From: Planctomycetes bacterium ADurb.Bin069
GTDB lineage: Bacteria; Planctomycetota; UBA8108; UBA8890; UBA8898
DNA length: 64,000 bases
Reading direction: 5' to 3'
NCBI GenBank assembly: GCA_002070955.1
Contig: MWEK01000019.1
Span: forward strand, 1-64,000
The notes below the pieces were generated by a model. The model saw only the letters and a program-made list of their open reading frames with translations, was not told the origin of the DNA and did not search any database. The translations under genes were made by a program, and so were the position numbers. Positions 51,577 to 60,936 of this stretch are shown piece after piece. Position 1 is the first letter of the stretch; each line of letters opens with the position of its first letter.

Positions 51577-52548
51577 ATGCGGCGGCTTCAAGCGGCGGCA
51601 ATGGCGGCGGCAATGGCGGCGGCCCTCGGACTGCGGGCGGCGGAGAGCGGCGCGCCGGAGCGCGTCGAGGTCAAGCTTCGCGGCGGCTGCACGGTGGTCG
51701 CGGACATCATCAAGGAGAGCGCCGAAACGCTCTACCTGGACCTCGGGTTCACGGTGCTGGCCGTGCCGCGCAAGGAGGTGCTCCAGGCGAGCGTCGGCGA
51801 GGAAGCCGCCGCCGCGACGGTGCGCAAGGACATTTACTTCGTCGGCACTCTCGCCCCGGGGCCGATCAAGCGCAAGGCCGAGGAATTCGGTGAAGCGGTG
51901 GTGCGGGTGGGCACGCCGCAGGGCCAGGGCTCGGGTTTCATCATCGATCCTGAGGGCGGTTACGTCGTCACGAACCACCACGTCATTGCCGAGGAGCGCA
52001 AGATCCACGTCACCGTGTTCCGCCGCGACGGCCAGGAACTGGCGCGGGAGACCATCGGCGATGTGGAGATCGCGGCGCTCAACGAGACGTTGGACCTCGC
52101 GCTCCTCAGGCTGCCCGCGGACAAGCGCGCCGGCCTGAAGCACGTCTACCTCGGCGACAGCGCGCAAACGGCGGTCGGCGATGCCGTGTTCGCCATCGGG
52201 AGCCCCCTCGGCCTGGAGCGCTCGGTGAGCGAGGGCATCATCAGCATGCGGAACCGGCCGTTCGACGGTCTGGTCTACCTGCAGACCACGGCCGCGATCA
52301 ATCCGGGCAACAGCGGGGGTCCGCTTTTCAACGAGCGCGGCGAGGTGATCGGCATCACCAACATGAAAGTCATGTACGGGGAGGGGCTCGGTTTCGCCAT
52401 CCCCGTTGATTACTTGAAGGACTTCCTGCAGAATCGCGATGCCTTTGTGTTTGACAAGGACAACCCCAACACCGGGTGGCGCTACCTGCCGCCGCCCCCC
52501 AAGCCCAAGGCCGCCGCGCCGGCGCAAGCAAAGGAGGACGTGAAATGA
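51577..52548 (+). CDS. Secreted trypsin-like serine protease (HtrA-like core, no PDZ)
   Basis: 323 aa with signal peptide to about residue 22. Residues 30-85 are a small beta region. The S1C protease core has His135 (TNHHV), Asp173 (TLDLALL) and Ser246 (NPGNSGGPL). HtrA proteins normally carry one or two PDZ domains after the core; here there is only a proline/lysine-rich tail. It sits after the FG-GAP gene and overlaps the next by 4 bases. Confidence 0.87.
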   Translation: MRRLQAAAMAAAMAAALGLRAAESGAPERVEVKLRGGCTVVADIIKESAETLYLDLGFTVLAVPRKEVLQASVGEEAAAATVRKDIYFVGTLAPGPIKRKAEEFGEAVVRVGTPQGQGSGFIIDPEGGYVVTNHHVIAEERKIHVTVFRRDGQELARETIGDVEIAALNETLDLALLRLPADKRAGLKHVYLGDSAQTAVGDAVFAIGSPLGLERSVSEGIISMRNRPFDGLVYLQTTAAINPGNSGGPLFNERGEVIGITNMKVMYGEGLGFAIPVDYLKDFLQNRDAFVFDKDNPNTGWRYLPPPPKPKAAAPAQAKEDVK

Positions 52549-54455
52549 AGCCGACCCTTCCCGCCCGAGCGGTTCTGGTCGTTGCCGTCCTGTCATTGGC
52601 GTTTCCGGCGGCGGCCGCCGACGCGGCGCCCAGCGTGCCGCTGGCCGCCATCGCCCCGCGGGGGACGCTGGCGCTCGTGGAGATGCCGGCCCTCAAGGTC
52701 CTGTGGGAGGAATTCCAGGCCTACACGGCGCCCGCCTTCGCCGATGACGACTTGCGGAAGGCTTGGGCGAAACTCTGGGAGGGGAAATGGGAACGCGACG
52801 CGCGCGAGATTTTCGGAATGCAGCCCCTCGATCTTCTGCTCGCCTATCCAACGCGGCTCGGCTGTATTCTCGGCGACCTGACGCCGGTTATCGAGGCTAA
52901 GATGGAGGACGAGACACCGTCTCCGAATGATCTTGAGATCGGGTTCTGCATCGAAGCGGGGAAGGGCAAGGAGGAGTTCGCCAAGGCGTTCGAGCAGTTC
53001 CTCGAGGCGGTCGTCAAGCACGCCGCCGGCAAGGGCCGTGAGTTCTCCCTGCGCCGCGAAAAATACCACGACGCGCCTTATTTCATCGCGACCGTCCCCC
53101 CCGACGCCGCAGACGCCGGGAAGAATGACGAGAGCGAACAGATAAACCTCTATGCGGGGTGGGCCGGCGCGTGGCTCGTCCTGACGCCGTCCAAGCGCAT
53201 GCTGGAAAAGATATTCGATGTCCACGAGGGCGCGCCGGCGCTGAGAGCGTGCGATGGCTACCGCGCCGCCGAGGAGGCGCTGGGCTGGAAGAGCGGCGAG
53301 GTCGCCCTCTACGCCGATGTGCGTGGGTTCCTGGGCCTTCTCAAAAACCTGATGACCGCGAAGATGCCCAAGACAGGGGACCGGCCCACCGCGGAGGGTC
53401 GGACGGTCCTAGACATTCTGGATCTTTTCTTCGGCGAGATCACGACCGCGGCGTTCCGGCTCGGCTTCGCGGACAAGACGCTGGTTTCAGAGTATTTCGT
53501 CGGCTGCGATCGCGCCGCGGAGCCCGGCTTGCTGCATATCCTCGGCCGCAAGGAAGGCCTGAGCTTTCCGGGCTGGACGTGGAGCGGCGATGGAGCCGGG
53601 CAGGCCTGCCTCGCGGTGGATGCCAAGCACCTGCAGAAGCTTGTGCCCAAGCTGCTCTCGAAGATCTACGCCGTGCAGTTCGACCCATCGATGGCCGATG
53701 CCTGGCGCGGGCAGTTTTCGGCGTTCTTCATGGGCCTTGACCTGGAAAAGGATCTGCTGGGCACCATCGGCGAACGGTTGACCTTGATCACGGGCTCCAA
53801 GCAGACCGCCAAGGCGGGCGCGGAGGAGCGCGACGATGACGCCTTCGAGTTTGACGTCGGCGCGGGCCTTAACGATTTCCTGATCGCCCTCGAGCTCCAG
53901 AAGACCGAACCGTGGGAGACAATGCTCGGGCAGATGACCAGCACCATAACCGGCGGCACGATCAAGAAGTCCGAGTACATGGAGCGCACGTTCTTCGTCT
54001 TCGTCGATTCGCCTTCCAAGCAGCTCCTGGGCGGCGTCAGCGACGGCATGCTGCTCGTCGGCACGCGGGACATGATCGAGCAGGCCGTGCGGCGCTTCGG
54101 CAAGGACCTGCCCGGACTGAACGACAATGCGGGCCTGAAGGAGCTTGCGGCCGGCGCGCCCGGGCCGAACGCCTGGGTGGGATACCAGGCGCAAGGATCC
54201 CTCGGTGTCGAAGAGATCCGGGCTTTGGGCGGTCTCGTTGAAGAGAACTTCGCGAACGAGGTCCCGGACATCGAAGACGTCGTCGGGAAGGAACTGGCGG
54301 AGAGCGTTCTCGGCCTCGTGCGCGAGGTGCTCAAGGAGAAGCGCTGGTCGGATTTCGCGCCGCGCAGCTTCTCCACGGCCTCCTGGGAGGCCGGCGGGCT
54401 GCGTGTTCACACCATCGAGCGTGGGACCAAGCCGAAGGCGGCAGGCAGCTTCTGA
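52545..54455 (+). CDS. Large secreted protein, unknown function
   Basis: 636 aa from the ATG at 52545; AAAGGAGGACG precedes and the start overlaps the protease stop (ATGA). Signal peptide to about residue 26. The body alternates short strands and helices with repeated motifs like VALYADVRGFLGLL, FGEITTAAFRLGF and SPSKQLLGGVSDGMLLVG; two or three copies of an alpha-beta layout seem present, reminiscent of DUF3352-type secreted proteins. I do not recognise it firmly. May be a substrate or partner of the upstream protease. Confidence 0.5.
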   Translation: MKPTLPARAVLVVAVLSLAFPAAAADAAPSVPLAAIAPRGTLALVEMPALKVLWEEFQAYTAPAFADDDLRKAWAKLWEGKWERDAREIFGMQPLDLLLAYPTRLGCILGDLTPVIEAKMEDETPSPNDLEIGFCIEAGKGKEEFAKAFEQFLEAVVKHAAGKGREFSLRREKYHDAPYFIATVPPDAADAGKNDESEQINLYAGWAGAWLVLTPSKRMLEKIFDVHEGAPALRACDGYRAAEEALGWKSGEVALYADVRGFLGLLKNLMTAKMPKTGDRPTAEGRTVLDILDLFFGEITTAAFRLGFADKTLVSEYFVGCDRAAEPGLLHILGRKEGLSFPGWTWSGDGAGQACLAVDAKHLQKLVPKLLSKIYAVQFDPSMADAWRGQFSAFFMGLDLEKDLLGTIGERLTLITGSKQTAKAGAEERDDDAFEFDVGAGLNDFLIALELQKTEPWETMLGQMTSTITGGTIKKSEYMERTFFVFVDSPSKQLLGGVSDGMLLVGTRDMIEQAVRRFGKDLPGLNDNAGLKELAAGAPGPNAWVGYQAQGSLGVEEIRALGGLVEENFANEVPDIEDVVGKELAESVLGLVREVLKEKRWSDFAPRSFSTASWEAGGLRVHTIERGTKPKAAGSF

Positions 54456-54495: not shown

Positions 54496-56430
54496 ATGCG
54501 CAAGGACAAGATTCTATCCGAGCTTCAAGAGTCGGCGTTTCGCAAGTTCGAGCTCCTCAGGGAAGGGCTCGTCGCCAACGATCGAGCGAAATACTATTTC
54601 GCCCTCCTGGGCCTCGCCCAGGCCCACGCCTTTGACCCGTCGGCGCCCGTGGACGGCCTGGAAAGCGAACGCCAGAAGGCCGGCATCGAGGATGCGTGGC
54701 TGGACGAAGTGGCGGCGCTCGCCGCGGCCGACGGCGACGACGTGGTGGTGCCGCGGGGCAAGGAGGTGCTCCAGCGCGCGGCGCAGGAAACGAAGATCAT
54801 GGTGGAAGCCGTGAGCGCCTGCGGCGCGCCGGAGGCCGGGCAGTTCGGGCATCGGCTGCGGCTGATCGAGGAGGAAATCGCGCGCGCCAAGGAAGATCGA
54901 CTCGGGGCCGCGCTCATCGGGCGTATGCTCTCCGGCGAGCGCGGGCGCGCCGATGGGCTGCACCTCCTCGTCATGGATGCGCACAAGGCCCTCAACCGCC
55001 TGGGCGTGGAGTTGGCCGAGGAGAAGATCGACGGCGCCGCGGTCTTCGGCATCGATCCGGAGGACCGGGAGCTGGTGGCGGCCTTCATGCGCGGCGTCAA
55101 CCGCACCTCGCCGCTTCGCTTCGATCACCCGGGCCTGGACACCACGGCGACGCGGCTCAAGACGCAGCTTCTCATCCAGAACGACATCGGCGAGACGGAT
55201 GCGCACGTTTTCCTGTGCGCCGTCCGGTCGGGCGCCGTCGAGGTCACGTACACCGACGTGCACGAGAAGCGGGCCGATTTCTTCCAGAAGTCCCTGGCGC
55301 CCCTTTCGCCGCGCTGGCAGGCCCGGTCGATCAAGCAGGCCAAGGACCTGCCCGAGTCGTCGGACTACTACCTCGTGCGGGGGACGATCCCGTGGAGCGA
55401 CCGCGGGGAGCTTTGCCACGCCCTGACCGAGATCGGGGCCAAGCTTGCCTTCCTCATCGACTGGAACAAGGCGCGCAAGGCTCTGCGCACCTTCATCAAG
55501 GGCGGCGACGCGGTCAGGATGCTGGCCTGGTCCACGCAGGAGGAGATCGGCCACATGGCCTTCCTCAAGCTCGGCGGGCGGGATCTCATCTACGAGGTGC
55601 TCGAGCTCCTGGAGCCGGGGATGATCAGGCCGGGCGAGCCGCTCAAGTCCGTCCTGGGCGACGAGGCCACTCTCGCCTTCCTGCGCGACACCCTCAAGAT
55701 CGCGTCGCTCGGGCTGCGCGGCAACGAATCGGAGCTTCTCGTCCGCGACCGGGTCAAGGCCGCCTTCGTGCGCTACTTCCAGACGCTCGCGCGCGGTCCG
55801 CTCATGAACTGCCGCGACTTGCTGGGGCTGGTGGTGGAGGGCGCGCTCACGGTGCGCGACATGCTCCGGGCCCTGGCGCGGGGCGATCGCGGTTTCATCA
55901 CGCGCAGCGTGCGGCGCCTGTGCGCCTGGGAGGAGGAAAGCGATCGCATCGTCAACCGGATTCGCAAGACCGGCGGCCCTCGGCCGGGGGCGACGGACGC
56001 GCTGACCCCGGCGGTGCTGGCCGACGACGCGCAGGACGCCTTGGAGGAGGCCGCGCACCTCATCGGTCTGATCGCGCCCGAGAAGCTGCCCGAGCAGCTC
56101 CGGTTCGGCCTGGAGGAGGCGGGCGATCTCTGCGTGCGCGCGGCGCAGGAGGGGTACAAGGCCGTCGCTTCCGCCGAGGAGGCGTTCAACGAGGCGACGG
56201 CGCTCGACGATTTCAGCCGCAGCATCGATCGGCTGGACGGTTTTTCGCACCGGGCCGAGGAACTCAGGCGCGAGTTCCGGCGCCTGCTGCTGGCGGGGCC
56301 GGAGCTGGGCTCGGCCTTTGCAATTTTGGTCAAGGACTGCGCCGGCGAGTTGACCACGGCCACCGAGAGCCTGGCGCGGGCCGGATTCGCGCTGCACCGC
56401 ACCGTGTTCGACCGATCCACGAAGAGGTGA
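54496..56430 (+). CDS. Unknown 644-aa helical protein paired with PPDK-like gene
   Basis: 644 aa from the ATG at 54496 (AGGGGA upstream). No signal peptide, so cytoplasmic. Helical throughout. The N-terminal third is all-helical; the middle includes HVFLCAVRSGAVEVTYTDVH and LRTFIKGGDAVRMLAW; the C-terminal third (about 450-644) has regularly spaced acidic/aliphatic heptads such as LCAWEEESDRIVNRIRKTGG and SRSIDRLDGFSHRAEELRRE, reminiscent of PhoU/DUF47 helical bundles. I cannot name a family. Four bases separate it from the next gene, implying a joint function. Confidence 0.5.
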   Translation: MRKDKILSELQESAFRKFELLREGLVANDRAKYYFALLGLAQAHAFDPSAPVDGLESERQKAGIEDAWLDEVAALAAADGDDVVVPRGKEVLQRAAQETKIMVEAVSACGAPEAGQFGHRLRLIEEEIARAKEDRLGAALIGRMLSGERGRADGLHLLVMDAHKALNRLGVELAEEKIDGAAVFGIDPEDRELVAAFMRGVNRTSPLRFDHPGLDTTATRLKTQLLIQNDIGETDAHVFLCAVRSGAVEVTYTDVHEKRADFFQKSLAPLSPRWQARSIKQAKDLPESSDYYLVRGTIPWSDRGELCHALTEIGAKLAFLIDWNKARKALRTFIKGGDAVRMLAWSTQEEIGHMAFLKLGGRDLIYEVLELLEPGMIRPGEPLKSVLGDEATLAFLRDTLKIASLGLRGNESELLVRDRVKAAFVRYFQTLARGPLMNCRDLLGLVVEGALTVRDMLRALARGDRGFITRSVRRLCAWEEESDRIVNRIRKTGGPRPGATDALTPAVLADDAQDALEEAAHLIGLIAPEKLPEQLRFGLEEAGDLCVRAAQEGYKAVASAEEAFNEATALDDFSRSIDRLDGFSHRAEELRREFRRLLLAGPELGSAFAILVKDCAGELTTATESLARAGFALHRTVFDRSTKR

Positions 56431-56434
56431 ATCC

Positions 56435-58066
56435 ATGAGCGATAACGGGCGCTGGCTGTACCTTTTCAGTCCGGGCCGCGCGGAGATCCCGCCGGAGGGC
56501 GGCGAGGTGCTCGGGCGCAAGGGCATGAATCTGGCGGCGATGTGCCGCCTCGGCTTCCCGGTGCCGCCGGGGTTCACCATCTCGGCGCGCCTGTGCCGGC
56601 GGTACCTGGCCGACGGCACCCTGCCCGCCGATTTCGACGCGGAGCTCCGGCGCGGCGTCGCGGAGCTGGAGCGCGCCACGGGCAGGCAGTTCGGGGCGCG
56701 GCACCGGCCGCTCCTCGTGTCGGCGCGCAGCGGCGCGGCGGTGTCGATGCCGGGCATGATGGAGACGGTCCTCAACCTGGGGCTGAACGAAGACTCGGTC
56801 GAGGGGCTCATGCGCCTCTCGGGGAACCCGCGCTTCGCGTGGGACAGTTGGAGGCGTCTCATCGCCATGTTCGGCGACGTCGTCTGCGGCGTGCCGCGCC
56901 ACGACTTCGAGACCTTGCTCACGAAGGCCAAGGAGAAAGCCGAGGTGATCGAGGACTACGAGCTCGACGCCAAGAGCTTGAAGCTGGTCGCGCGCCGGTC
57001 GCTGGACATCTTCGAGCGCCGCACCAAGCGGTCGTTCCCGCAGGACCACTTCGCGCAGCTCAGGGAGGCGGTCGAGGCGGTGTTCCGGTCGTGGGAGAGT
57101 CCGCGGGCGCGCGAGTACCGGCGCCTGCACAACCTCGACGGCCTGGCGGGCACGGCGGTGACGATCCAGGCGATGGTGTTCGGCAACTCGGGGGGCAATT
57201 CGGGCACCGGCGTGGCCTTCACGCGCGACCCGGTGTCGGGCCGGCCGGCCCTGTACGTCGATTTTCTGTACAACGCCCAGGGCGAGGACCTGGTGGCGGG
57301 CATCCGGAACCCGGAGACCGGCGAGACCTTCTCCAAGGAGATGCCCGAGGTTTACGAGCAGCTCCAGGACATCCGCGCCAGGCTCGAGAACGCCATGCGG
57401 GACATGCAGGACATCGAGTTCACCGTGGAGGACGGCGCGCTGTATCTGCTGCAGACGCGGTCGGGGAAGCGTTCGGCGCGGGCGGCGGTGAAGATCGCGG
57501 TGGACATGGTCGCCGAGGGGCGGGTCACCCGCAAGGAGGCCATCGAGCGCCTGCGGGAGGTCGACCCGCGGCGGCTGGCGCTGCACGCCTTCGCGCACGA
57601 CCCCGAGCGGCGGGCGCTGGCTTCCGCGTTTCCCGCCTCGGCGGGCGTGGCCGTGGGACGGATCGCGCTGACCTCGGAGCGCGCGGTCGAGGTGGCCCAG
57701 GGGGGCGACCCCGTGATTCTCGTGCGCGAGGAGACCAGCGCCGACGACATTGCGGGCATGGCGGCGGCCCGGGGCATCCTCACCTCGCGCGGCGGCCGGA
57801 CCTCGCACGCGGCGGTCGTCGCGCGCCAGATGGGGATCACGTGCCTGGTGGGCTGCCGCGATCTCGGGATCGACCTGGAGGCCCGGGCGGTGAAGCTCCA
57901 CAACGAATCCTTCGCCGAGGGCGAGTGGCTCAGCCTGGACGGCGCGTCGGGCCGCGTCTTCGCGGGCCGGGTGCCGACCGAGGTCCAGAGCGACATCCCG
58001 GAATTGGCCGAGGCGCGCCGCTGGCTGGTGGAGGAGGGGATCACGGAGCACCCGCTGGCGGAGTGA
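56435..58066 (+). CDS. Truncated pyruvate-phosphate-dikinase-like protein
   Basis: 543 aa. The ATP-grasp domain (about 1-345; ARSGAAVSMPGMMETVLNLG, FGNSGGNSGTGVAFTRDP) and the swivelling phosphohistidine domain (about 385-500; GRTSHAAVVARQMGITCL, His458) correspond to the first two domains of PPDK. The C-terminal PEP/pyruvate barrel, needed for the full PPDK reaction and present in the usual 870-900 aa enzyme, is absent and the gene ends cleanly. It could pass phosphate from ATP to the paired 644-aa protein or to a small molecule. Alternative: an inactive relic, but the catalytic histidine and nucleotide loop are intact. Confidence 0.7.
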   Translation: MSDNGRWLYLFSPGRAEIPPEGGEVLGRKGMNLAAMCRLGFPVPPGFTISARLCRRYLADGTLPADFDAELRRGVAELERATGRQFGARHRPLLVSARSGAAVSMPGMMETVLNLGLNEDSVEGLMRLSGNPRFAWDSWRRLIAMFGDVVCGVPRHDFETLLTKAKEKAEVIEDYELDAKSLKLVARRSLDIFERRTKRSFPQDHFAQLREAVEAVFRSWESPRAREYRRLHNLDGLAGTAVTIQAMVFGNSGGNSGTGVAFTRDPVSGRPALYVDFLYNAQGEDLVAGIRNPETGETFSKEMPEVYEQLQDIRARLENAMRDMQDIEFTVEDGALYLLQTRSGKRSARAAVKIAVDMVAEGRVTRKEAIERLREVDPRRLALHAFAHDPERRALASAFPASAGVAVGRIALTSERAVEVAQGGDPVILVREETSADDIAGMAAARGILTSRGGRTSHAAVVARQMGITCLVGCRDLGIDLEARAVKLHNESFAEGEWLSLDGASGRVFAGRVPTEVQSDIPELAEARRWLVEEGITEHPLAE

Positions 58067-58103: not shown

Positions 58104-59051
58104 CTAGGACTCGAACAAGGGCGTCGAGAGGTATCTTTCGCCCGAATCGGGCAGAATCGTCACGATGGTCTTGTCCGCCAGGTCGTGCTGGCGGGCCAGG
58201 CGGGCCGCGACGGCCGCCGCGGCGCCGCAGGAGATGCCCGACAGGATACCCTCCTCGCGGGCGAGGCGCCGGGCGTACTCCATGGCCTCCTCGTTGCTCA
58301 CGGTTTCGACGCGATCGACGAGGGCAAGGTCGAGCACGGCGGGGATGAAACCGGCGCCGATGCCCTGAATCAAGTGGCCGCCGGGCTTGATCTCCTGGCC
58401 GGCGAGCGCCTGGGTGATCACGGGGCTGTCGTGGGGCTCCACCGCCACGGCGATGATCTTTTTGCCGCGCGTGCGCTTGATGTAGCGGGCGATGCCCGTG
58501 AGGGTGCCGCCGGTGCCCACGCCGGCGATGAGCACATCGACGGCGCCGTCGGTGTCGTTCCAGATCTCGGGGCCGGTCGTTTGCTCGTGAACGGCGGGGT
58601 TGGCGGGGTTCGTGAACTGCTGCGGCATGAAGTAGCGGTCGGGCTCGCGCGCCATCATCTCCTCCGCCAGGGCGATGGCGCCGGGCATGCGCGCGGAGCC
58701 CGGGGACAGGACGACGTTGGCGCCGAAGGCTTTGAGGACCTTGCGCCGCTCGACGCTCATCGTTTCGGGCATGACCAGGGTCACCTTGTAGCCGCGGCTC
58801 GCGCCGACGAAAGCGAGGGCGATGCCGGTGTTGCCGCTGGTCGGCTCGAGGATTTCCTTGCCGGGGGTGAGGACGCCGCGCCGCTCGGCGTCCCAGATCA
58901 TGCTCGCGCCGATGCGGCACTTGACCGAGTTGGCGGGGTTCCGGCCCTCGATCTTGGCCAGGACGGTGGCCCCCCCGTCGCCGATGATCCTCTTGAGCCG
59001 CACGAGGGGGGTGTTGCCGATGGAAAGCGAGTTGTCGTCGAAGAACTTCAT
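58104..59051 (-). CDS. cysK: Cysteine synthase A
   Basis: 315 aa. O-acetylserine sulfhydrylase fold: NSVKCRIG with PLP Lys44, PTSGNTGIA (70-78) for the substrate loop, [10 protein letters not shown] for the phosphate cup and SGISCGAA near the C-terminus. Converts O-acetylserine and sulfide to cysteine. Divergent from the Rrf2-type regulator, with the shared promoter region carrying a palindrome (59129-59151). Confidence 0.93.
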
Positions 59052-59115
59052 GGGCGGTCCTTTCGTTGCCGTTTTTTCGCCGCAGGGGGGCTTGCCGCCC
59101 GCCGGCGCGGATGTT

Positions 59116-59144
59116 AGTATACACGATTTACATGATCATGTTAA
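59116..59144 (-). promoter_or_regulatory. cysK promoter
   Basis: On the minus strand TTAACA (59144-59139), 17-base spacer, TATACT (59121-59116). The -35 sits inside the palindrome, so a bound repressor would block it. Confidence 0.6.
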
Positions 59145-59151
59145 TCATGTA
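59129..59151. promoter_or_regulatory. Inverted repeat, likely Rrf2-type operator
   Basis: TACATGAT (59129-59136) and ATCATGTA (59144-59151) are perfect inverted copies around a 7-base centre, in an AT-rich patch of a GC-rich genome. It overlaps the cysK promoter and lies 16 bases before the Rrf2-type start. Most likely bound by that regulator. Confidence 0.6.
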
Positions 59152-59166
59152 TTTGTAAGGCTTGAT

Positions 59167-59607
59167 GTGATCAGAATATCGACAAAAGGGCGTTATGCGA
59201 CGCGGATAATGATCTGCCTGGCGCGGTTCGGCGTCAAGGCGCCGGCGCGCAAGCAGGACATCGCCCGCGCGGAAGACATTTCCGCCGACTATGTCGAGCA
59301 GATTCTGATGAAGCTCAAGGCGGCAGGGCTCGTCCGGAGCCACCGCGGGACGCGCGGCGGTTTCTCACTGGCGCGCGACCCGGCGGAGATCAGCGTGAGC
59401 GCGGTGCTCGCGGCGGTCGAGGGGCCTTTCGAGCTTGCCCCCTGCGCCTCCGCGGAATGCGCCCGGGCCTCGGTTTGCGTCACGCGCGGCTTGTGGCGCC
59501 GGGGGAGCGAGGCGCTCGAGGCCGTCTTCGGGAGCGCGACCGTCGCCGCGCTGGCGGAAGAGGCGCGGGCCGCCGACGCGGCCCAAGGACACATGTTCGA
59601 GATCTAG
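59167..59607 (+). CDS. Rrf2-family regulator (CymR/IscR-like)
   Basis: 146 aa from the GTG at 59167 (AAGG upstream), the usual Rrf2 length. The winged helix is clear: RISTKGRYATRIMICLAR, APARKQDIARAEDISADYVE, ILMKLKAAGLVRSHRGTRGG. CASAECARASVC gives three cysteines spaced C-x4-C-x5-C in the region where IscR binds its cluster, so iron-sulfur or thiol sensing is possible. It lies between cysK and metY, so CymR-like control of sulfur assimilation is the simplest role. Confidence 0.8.
   Translation: MIRISTKGRYATRIMICLARFGVKAPARKQDIARAEDISADYVEQILMKLKAAGLVRSHRGTRGGFSLARDPAEISVSAVLAAVEGPFELAPCASAECARASVCVTRGLWRRGSEALEAVFGSATVAALAEEARAADAAQGHMFEI

Positions 59608-60936
<1,329 letters not shown>

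Follow-up and report, generated by a model that had tools for sequence, protein, structure and literature searches.

What can a pyruvate, phosphate dikinase (PPDK) do if it lacks the barrel that binds phosphoenolpyruvate (PEP) and pyruvate? The question is raised by two adjacent genes of Planctomycetes bacterium ADurb.Bin069, located within positions 1 to 64,000 of contig MWEK01000019.1 (the whole stretch of DNA analyzed, hereafter the window). Gene B (56435..58066, plus strand) encodes a barrel-less PPDK of 543 amino acids, as assigned from its open reading frame (ORF), Pfam, TIGR01828, and structure alignment. It is preceded by gene A (54496..56430, plus strand), identified from its ORF and homologs, which encodes a partner protein of 644 amino acids with a helical N-terminus, a conserved central alpha/beta domain, and a C-terminal PhoU-like domain. 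An earlier note, made from the sequence alone, had reported both ORFs and their 4-base spacing, and we recovered them as described. Our reading, to which we assign a probability of roughly 50%, is that A and B are two subunits of a dikinase and that the acceptor site, whether for a small molecule or as a residue of A, lies on A.

A dikinase that ends before the barrel

Pfam detects PPDK_N and PEP-utilizers in B, and TIGR01828 matches it at 1.4e-192, covering only model positions 2-509 of 865, with a score of 641.9 bits that is below the equivalog cut-off of 843.45 bits. Solved PPDK structures align with B residues 6-519, including all ATP-site residues, and the end of B is equivalent to position about 509-519 of a full-length PPDK, after the His-swivel domain. 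PPDK differs in having the PEP/pyruvate barrel and in forming a separate clade. The ATP-grasp region of B (residues 1-350; 56435..57484, plus strand) has its catalytic residues intact, with a mean column identity of 0.61 and 51 of 350 residues invariant, and it is followed by a swivel (phosphohistidine) domain (residues about 396-515; 57620..57979, plus strand), placed by Pfam and structure alignment. In the alignment, Lys22, Arg92, Asp321, Glu323, Gln335, and Arg337 of Clostridium symbiosum PPDK correspond to B Lys29, Arg98, Asp326, Glu328, Gln340, and Arg342; we take the aligned C. symbiosum positions to be the ATP-site residues and the catalytic His. The 30 B proteins of the pair type all have Lys29, Arg98, Glu328, Gln340, Arg342, and His458, and 87% of them also have Asp326. 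His458 sits in GGRTSHAAVVAR (codon at 57806..57808, plus strand) and is the predicted phosphohistidine, based on alignment and conservation. The description of B in the earlier note, as a protein that keeps the ATP-grasp and phosphohistidine domains and stops short of the barrel, therefore stands.

Could the barrel be encoded elsewhere? No PEP/pyruvate barrel was found in cis or near any pair locus, using a search that recovers barrels in control PPDK loci. This rules out a missing barrel encoded in a separate nearby gene, which the earlier note had named as one of two findings that would count against its proposal. Since there is no barrel coding sequence near the pair, and since a relative with 87% identity in A has the identical A-B layout, neither an assembly error nor a frameshift explains why B is short. 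A begins with ATG, with a purine-rich AGGGG 8 nucleotides upstream, and B begins with ATG 4 nucleotides past the A stop, with GAGG immediately ahead of that stop, i.e., a putative ribosome-binding sequence precedes both starts. In the absence of a barrel, neither production nor use of PEP is expected of the pair by itself.

Most carriers also have the ordinary enzyme. In 27 of the 35 carrier genomes, among them the source genome (C5:167736-170426), another locus has a PPDK model match that exceeds the curated cut-off, which rules out both that B is the organism's ordinary PPDK and that the pair is a split PPDK awaiting its barrel. Several archaeal carriers show the short protein only, and there is no full-length PPDK match for L002, L003, L009, L010, and L013. 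The absent barrel could also mean that B is a decaying PPDK and that the pair is a passenger without a specific joint function. However, the active-site residues are invariant across Bacteria and Archaea, the B proteins form a single clade, and their linkage to A is strict and includes fusion (see below), so we give decay almost no weight.

A and B are linked and inherited together

When genome contigs were scanned with A, 39 loci were recovered. Of these, 35 have enough downstream sequence, and in every one of them B comes after A on the same strand; in the remaining four, the contig ends within ~260 bases of A or inside A. Another 22 A-B adjacencies come from two plasmids, six alphaproteobacterial genomes, a second Roseiarcus pair, and 13 archaeal or acidobacterial genomes. 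With the window included, all 58 informative loci have B directly after A, in the same order and on the same strand. The earlier note had named conserved adjacency, together with an acceptor pocket, as support for its phosphotransfer pair, and a loss of adjacency as a finding against it; no such loss was seen in this sample. In two actinobacterial Solirubrobacteraceae (L021 and L019), A and B are a single ORF of 1193 or 1222 amino acids, without a stop and with a proline-rich linker; the 1193-amino-acid natural fusion is at L021:5001-8579. No third gene recurs near the pairs (103 neighbors matched 149 families, with no family in more than four), so the two proteins should suffice. As the neighbor families show no theme, we gave up on deriving a function from gene neighborhood.

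The pair is found in Planctomycetota, Acidobacteriota, Actinomycetota, Alpha- and Betaproteobacteria, Methanobacteriota, and Thermoplasmatota, on chromosomes as well as plasmids, and it is rare and patchy. Full A is present in 2 of 294 genomes of the window's phylum, both in the window's genus. Carriers number 7 of 240 alphaproteobacterial, 14 of 295 archaeal, 2 of 199 Acidobacteriota, and 1 of 247 Actinomycetota genomes, where each sample includes its starting genome and takes its group name from the named locus at its center. One carrier, Roseiarcus (G304), has two A-B pairs (L012 and L101) along with a full PPDK (L094) and a further two PPDK-like proteins (L100:1938-4586, minus strand; L102:1883-3664, plus strand). 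One of these extra proteins (883 amino acids) has ~330 C-terminal residues without a PEP-utilizers_C Pfam match.

In a tree of 61 proteins, which is unrooted and thus silent on which form is ancestral, every B protein of the pair type belongs to a single group (100/99). This group has one further member, a B located at the end of its contig, so that the presence of A could not be judged. A separate group (92/96) contains the full-length PPDKs. Distances of A and B correlate at 0.92 across 37 loci. In 13 genomes that also have a full-length PPDK, the A-B correlation is 0.90 versus 0.68 between A and the full-length PPDK, and among the divergent pairs in these genomes the values are 0.55 versus 0.01.

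These distances bear on the possibility that A regulates or helps to assemble B, or else the resident full-length PPDK, while B modifies something else. PPDKs have a dedicated regulatory protein that acts on the Thr adjoining the catalytic His. The equivalent residue in B, Thr456, is invariant in the pair family, and most carriers do have a full-length PPDK. However, A has no recognized kinase or phosphatase domain, its distances track B and not the full-length PPDK, and the five carriers listed above show no full-length PPDK match. In all, this role for A appears unlikely.

A conserved central domain in protein A

The earlier note had described A as a helical protein, which is correct for the N-terminus and the C-terminal bundle but not for residues 133-412. 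The AlphaFold2 model of A (pLDDT 87.4, pTM 0.61) has three parts, the first being the helical N-terminus, and its alpha/beta center rules out a purely helical protein. This central domain (residues 133-412; 54892..55731, plus strand) is modeled as four consecutive strands, then a helix, two strands, and helices; when modeled alone, it has a pLDDT of 86.0 and a pTM of 0.84. It is outside Pfam families, as no Pfam family was found for A beyond a weak C-terminal DUF47/PhoU_div match, and it has no fold match at E ≤ 0.001 in PDB or viral structures. The proteins matched weakly (YbjN/AmyR, the SpcU chaperone, and Arp2/3) share the secretion-chaperone-like fold of SCOP, but confidence in this lead is low and we did not use it. 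The central domain was not found without B in 494 archaeal and acidobacterial genomes (E ≤ 0.01).

Conservation within A peaks in this domain, with a mean column identity of 0.63 and 41 of 280 residues invariant in 32 homologs. The corresponding values are 0.50 and 7 of 132 for the N-terminus, and 0.48 and 5 of 232 for the PhoU-like part. The central domain is thus conserved to a degree comparable with the ATP-grasp region of B (41/280 versus 51/350). Of its invariant residues, 22 are polar or aromatic, including five His, and many are grouped in motifs (all on the plus strand), which were located using the homolog alignment and, except for the first, the model. H156-x4-D161-x-H163 (54961..54984) is invariant. 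H211-P-G-L-x-T216 (55126..55143) is in the loop ahead of strand 1 of the predicted sheet, Q228-N-D-I-G-E-T-D-A-H237 (55177..55206) in the loop joining strands 2 and 3, and Y252-T-D254-V-H256-x-x-R259 (55249..55272) at the end of strand 4; the invariant positions include H211, Q228-D230, T234-H237, and Y252-R259. D322-W-N324-x-x-R327-K328 (55459..55479) is at the start of a helix. Judging from the predicted strand order, H211-T216, Q228-H237, and Y252-R259 would be found on one edge of the sheet, provided that the four strands are arranged as a simple meander.

The invariant His/Asp pattern could be a metal site, and A may then be an independent enzyme, e.g., a metal-dependent hydrolase or transferase that uses AMP/pyrophosphate (PPi) or another product of B, with B alone acting on a diffusible acceptor. 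However, the natural fusions and strict linkage suggest a tie closer than a common pathway, and no other pathway gene recurs near the pairs. We consider an independent A quite improbable.

The remainder of A (residues 413-644; 55732..56427, plus strand) is a PhoU-like (DUF47/PhoU_div) domain, supported by profile, Foldseek, and alignment. Its helical bundle matches the PhoU-like structures 2iiu, 2olt, and 3l39 (Foldseek TMt about 0.8), which share this fold with A, and the sequence profile matches DUF47/PhoU_div with an E value of 1.2e-7. The Pfam DUF47 score of A (20.1 bits) is under the gathering score of 24.4, and 19 of the 32 homologs match at E ≤ 0.1. The domain has two candidate metal motifs of the E(D)xxxD type: E479xxxD483 is invariant, while in D510xxxD514, D514 is invariant and D510 is present in 50%. 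Solved DUF47 proteins are ~210 amino acids long, whereas A has 412 extra N-terminal residues.

A PhoU-like output or an acceptor subunit?

The main rival to an acceptor site on A is signaling through A. B would be a histidine kinase in a phosphorelay, with A as its protein target or output; the phosphate or PhoU-metal state of A would be sensed to regulate transport or metabolism, and no metabolite would be phosphorylated. There is a precedent in VadK (Rv1127c) of Mycobacterium tuberculosis, the sole characterized barrel-less PPDK, which autophosphorylates His422 and acts as a regulatory histidine kinase; its reported partners are methylcitrate-cycle enzymes, and no dedicated neighbor is described (PMC13400623). 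Like B, VadK has the PPDK ATP-grasp and swivel His domains and lacks the PEP barrel. In addition, A ends in the PhoU-like domain with its conserved ExxxD/DxxxD motifs, and one VadK-clade actinobacterial barrel-less PPDK (L059:631-3102, minus strand, an ORF of 824 amino acids) is fused to a C-terminal LuxR-type (GerE) DNA-binding domain, apparently a dikinase wired to transcription.

However, pair-type B is outside the VadK clade. VadK-type short proteins, which were picked for the tree by NF004531 score or short length and not by name (Rv1127c is not in the tree), are located elsewhere in it, parted from the pair rows by starred branches, and VadK-type loci in this analysis have no A gene, unlike the pair loci. 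B does pass the curated cut-off of NF004531 (PRK05878), with 474.6 bits versus 456, but full-length PPDKs pass too and the tree separates the groups, ruling out that B is a VadK orthologue on this basis; a clear member scores 890 bits. Moreover, conservation of A peaks in the central domain and not in PhoU, the 22 invariant polar or aromatic residues exceed what a single phospho-acceptor would need, and no transporter or regulator gene recurs near the pairs. Signaling through A is therefore possible but doubtful. As a separate matter, ordinary full-length PPDKs score about 460-550 bits on NF004531 (a 534-amino-acid model), so the model may mislabel proteins.

The earlier note had proposed a phosphotransfer pair in which the partner provides the acceptor site; adjacency, fusions, and the absence of a nearby barrel favor this proposal, while a signaling or regulatory A remains its rival. 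In our version, B would bind Mg-ATP in the ATP-grasp and phosphorylate its own His458, releasing AMP and PPi (PPDK-like and phosphate [Pi] dependent) or Pi. The intact PPDK active-site residues and the autophosphorylation of VadK point to this step, and PPDK ancestry suggests that the chemistry may be Pi dependent. The swivel, having no PEP/pyruvate barrel in B, would then dock on A, where the central domain may hold the acceptor, i.e., either one of A's own residues or a small molecule bound in the predicted pocket of invariant His, Asp, and Arg. Linkage, natural fusion, and the conserved predicted pocket argue for this transfer; the two fusions and the invariant polar cluster are consistent with A as the partner contributing the acceptor site. 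The PhoU-like C-terminus probably serves in dimerization, metal/phosphate sensing, or docking.

Several points weigh against this mechanism. Linkage and correlated distances indicate joint inheritance, not contact. The predicted central domain has no recognizable enzyme fold (PDB, E ≤ 0.001), and regulation is the usual role of PhoU domains, which could make A a regulator or signaling target and not the subunit that binds a substrate. In known two-component dikinases, furthermore, the swivel is on the acceptor subunit, whereas here it is on the ATP-grasp protein (PMC12167813).

Comparison with other detached dikinase modules

The closest analogs of two separately encoded subunits are HpeHI, PpsAB, and CreHI, two-component dikinases in which both subunits are needed, the ATP-grasp stands alone, and the acceptor-binding subunit has an acceptor fold like that of rifampin phosphotransferase (RPH) (PMC12167813). 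The A-B pair resembles them in its two proteins and its predicted phosphohistidine swivel relay, and we propose that B and A are likewise donor and acceptor. In contrast, B carries both ATP-grasp and swivel, of PPDK type, and A combines a PhoU domain with a central domain that gave no significant fold match. In RPH itself, the swivel His carries phosphate to another acceptor domain (PMC4844700). RPH is like B in its ATP-grasp and swivel His, with a non-PEP acceptor domain, but it is a single chain with a C-terminal swivel and a rifampin-binding domain, and it was absent among the best 50 PDB structure matches of A and of the A central domain. The pair thus differs from VadK, HpeHI/PpsAB/CreHI, and RPH in domain division and partner identity.

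The earlier note knew of no description of such a system. For the exact PhoU-PPDK pair, we also found none in the literature searched, from which subscription journals are mostly missing. Barrel-less PPDKs (VadK) and two-component dikinases (HpeHI, PpsAB, and CreHI) have been described, and it is the domain split, with ATP-grasp and swivel on one protein and a new conserved domain and PhoU on the other, that is undescribed in that literature. It is tempting to recognize a new class of two-component dikinase across Bacteria and Archaea, with a barrel-less, PPDK-derived phosphohistidine donor and an acceptor site in a new conserved domain that is joined to a PhoU-like module and might thereby link phosphate/energy sensing with metabolite phosphorylation; we rate this tentatively, at slightly under even odds.

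Database labels currently give B as "pyruvate, phosphate dikinase" or "PEP/pyruvate-binding protein" and A as "DUF47 family protein" or "phosphate transport regulator," which would mislead metabolic models. The two genes make up a mobile module that includes a new conserved domain and whose missing substrate can be tested for. The pair also extends the findings on VadK (2026) and HpeHI (2025), in which swivel-histidine machinery is repeatedly detached from central metabolism.

Flanking genes in the window

The ORF directly upstream of A (52545-54452; 636 amino acids from the start used) has no Pfam match at E ≤ 0.001. On the other side, a sulfur cluster adjoins the pair (58104-60936), consisting of a PALP-family cysteine-synthase-like gene on the minus strand, an Rrf2-family regulator, and a Cys/Met-metabolism pyridoxal phosphate (PLP) enzyme.

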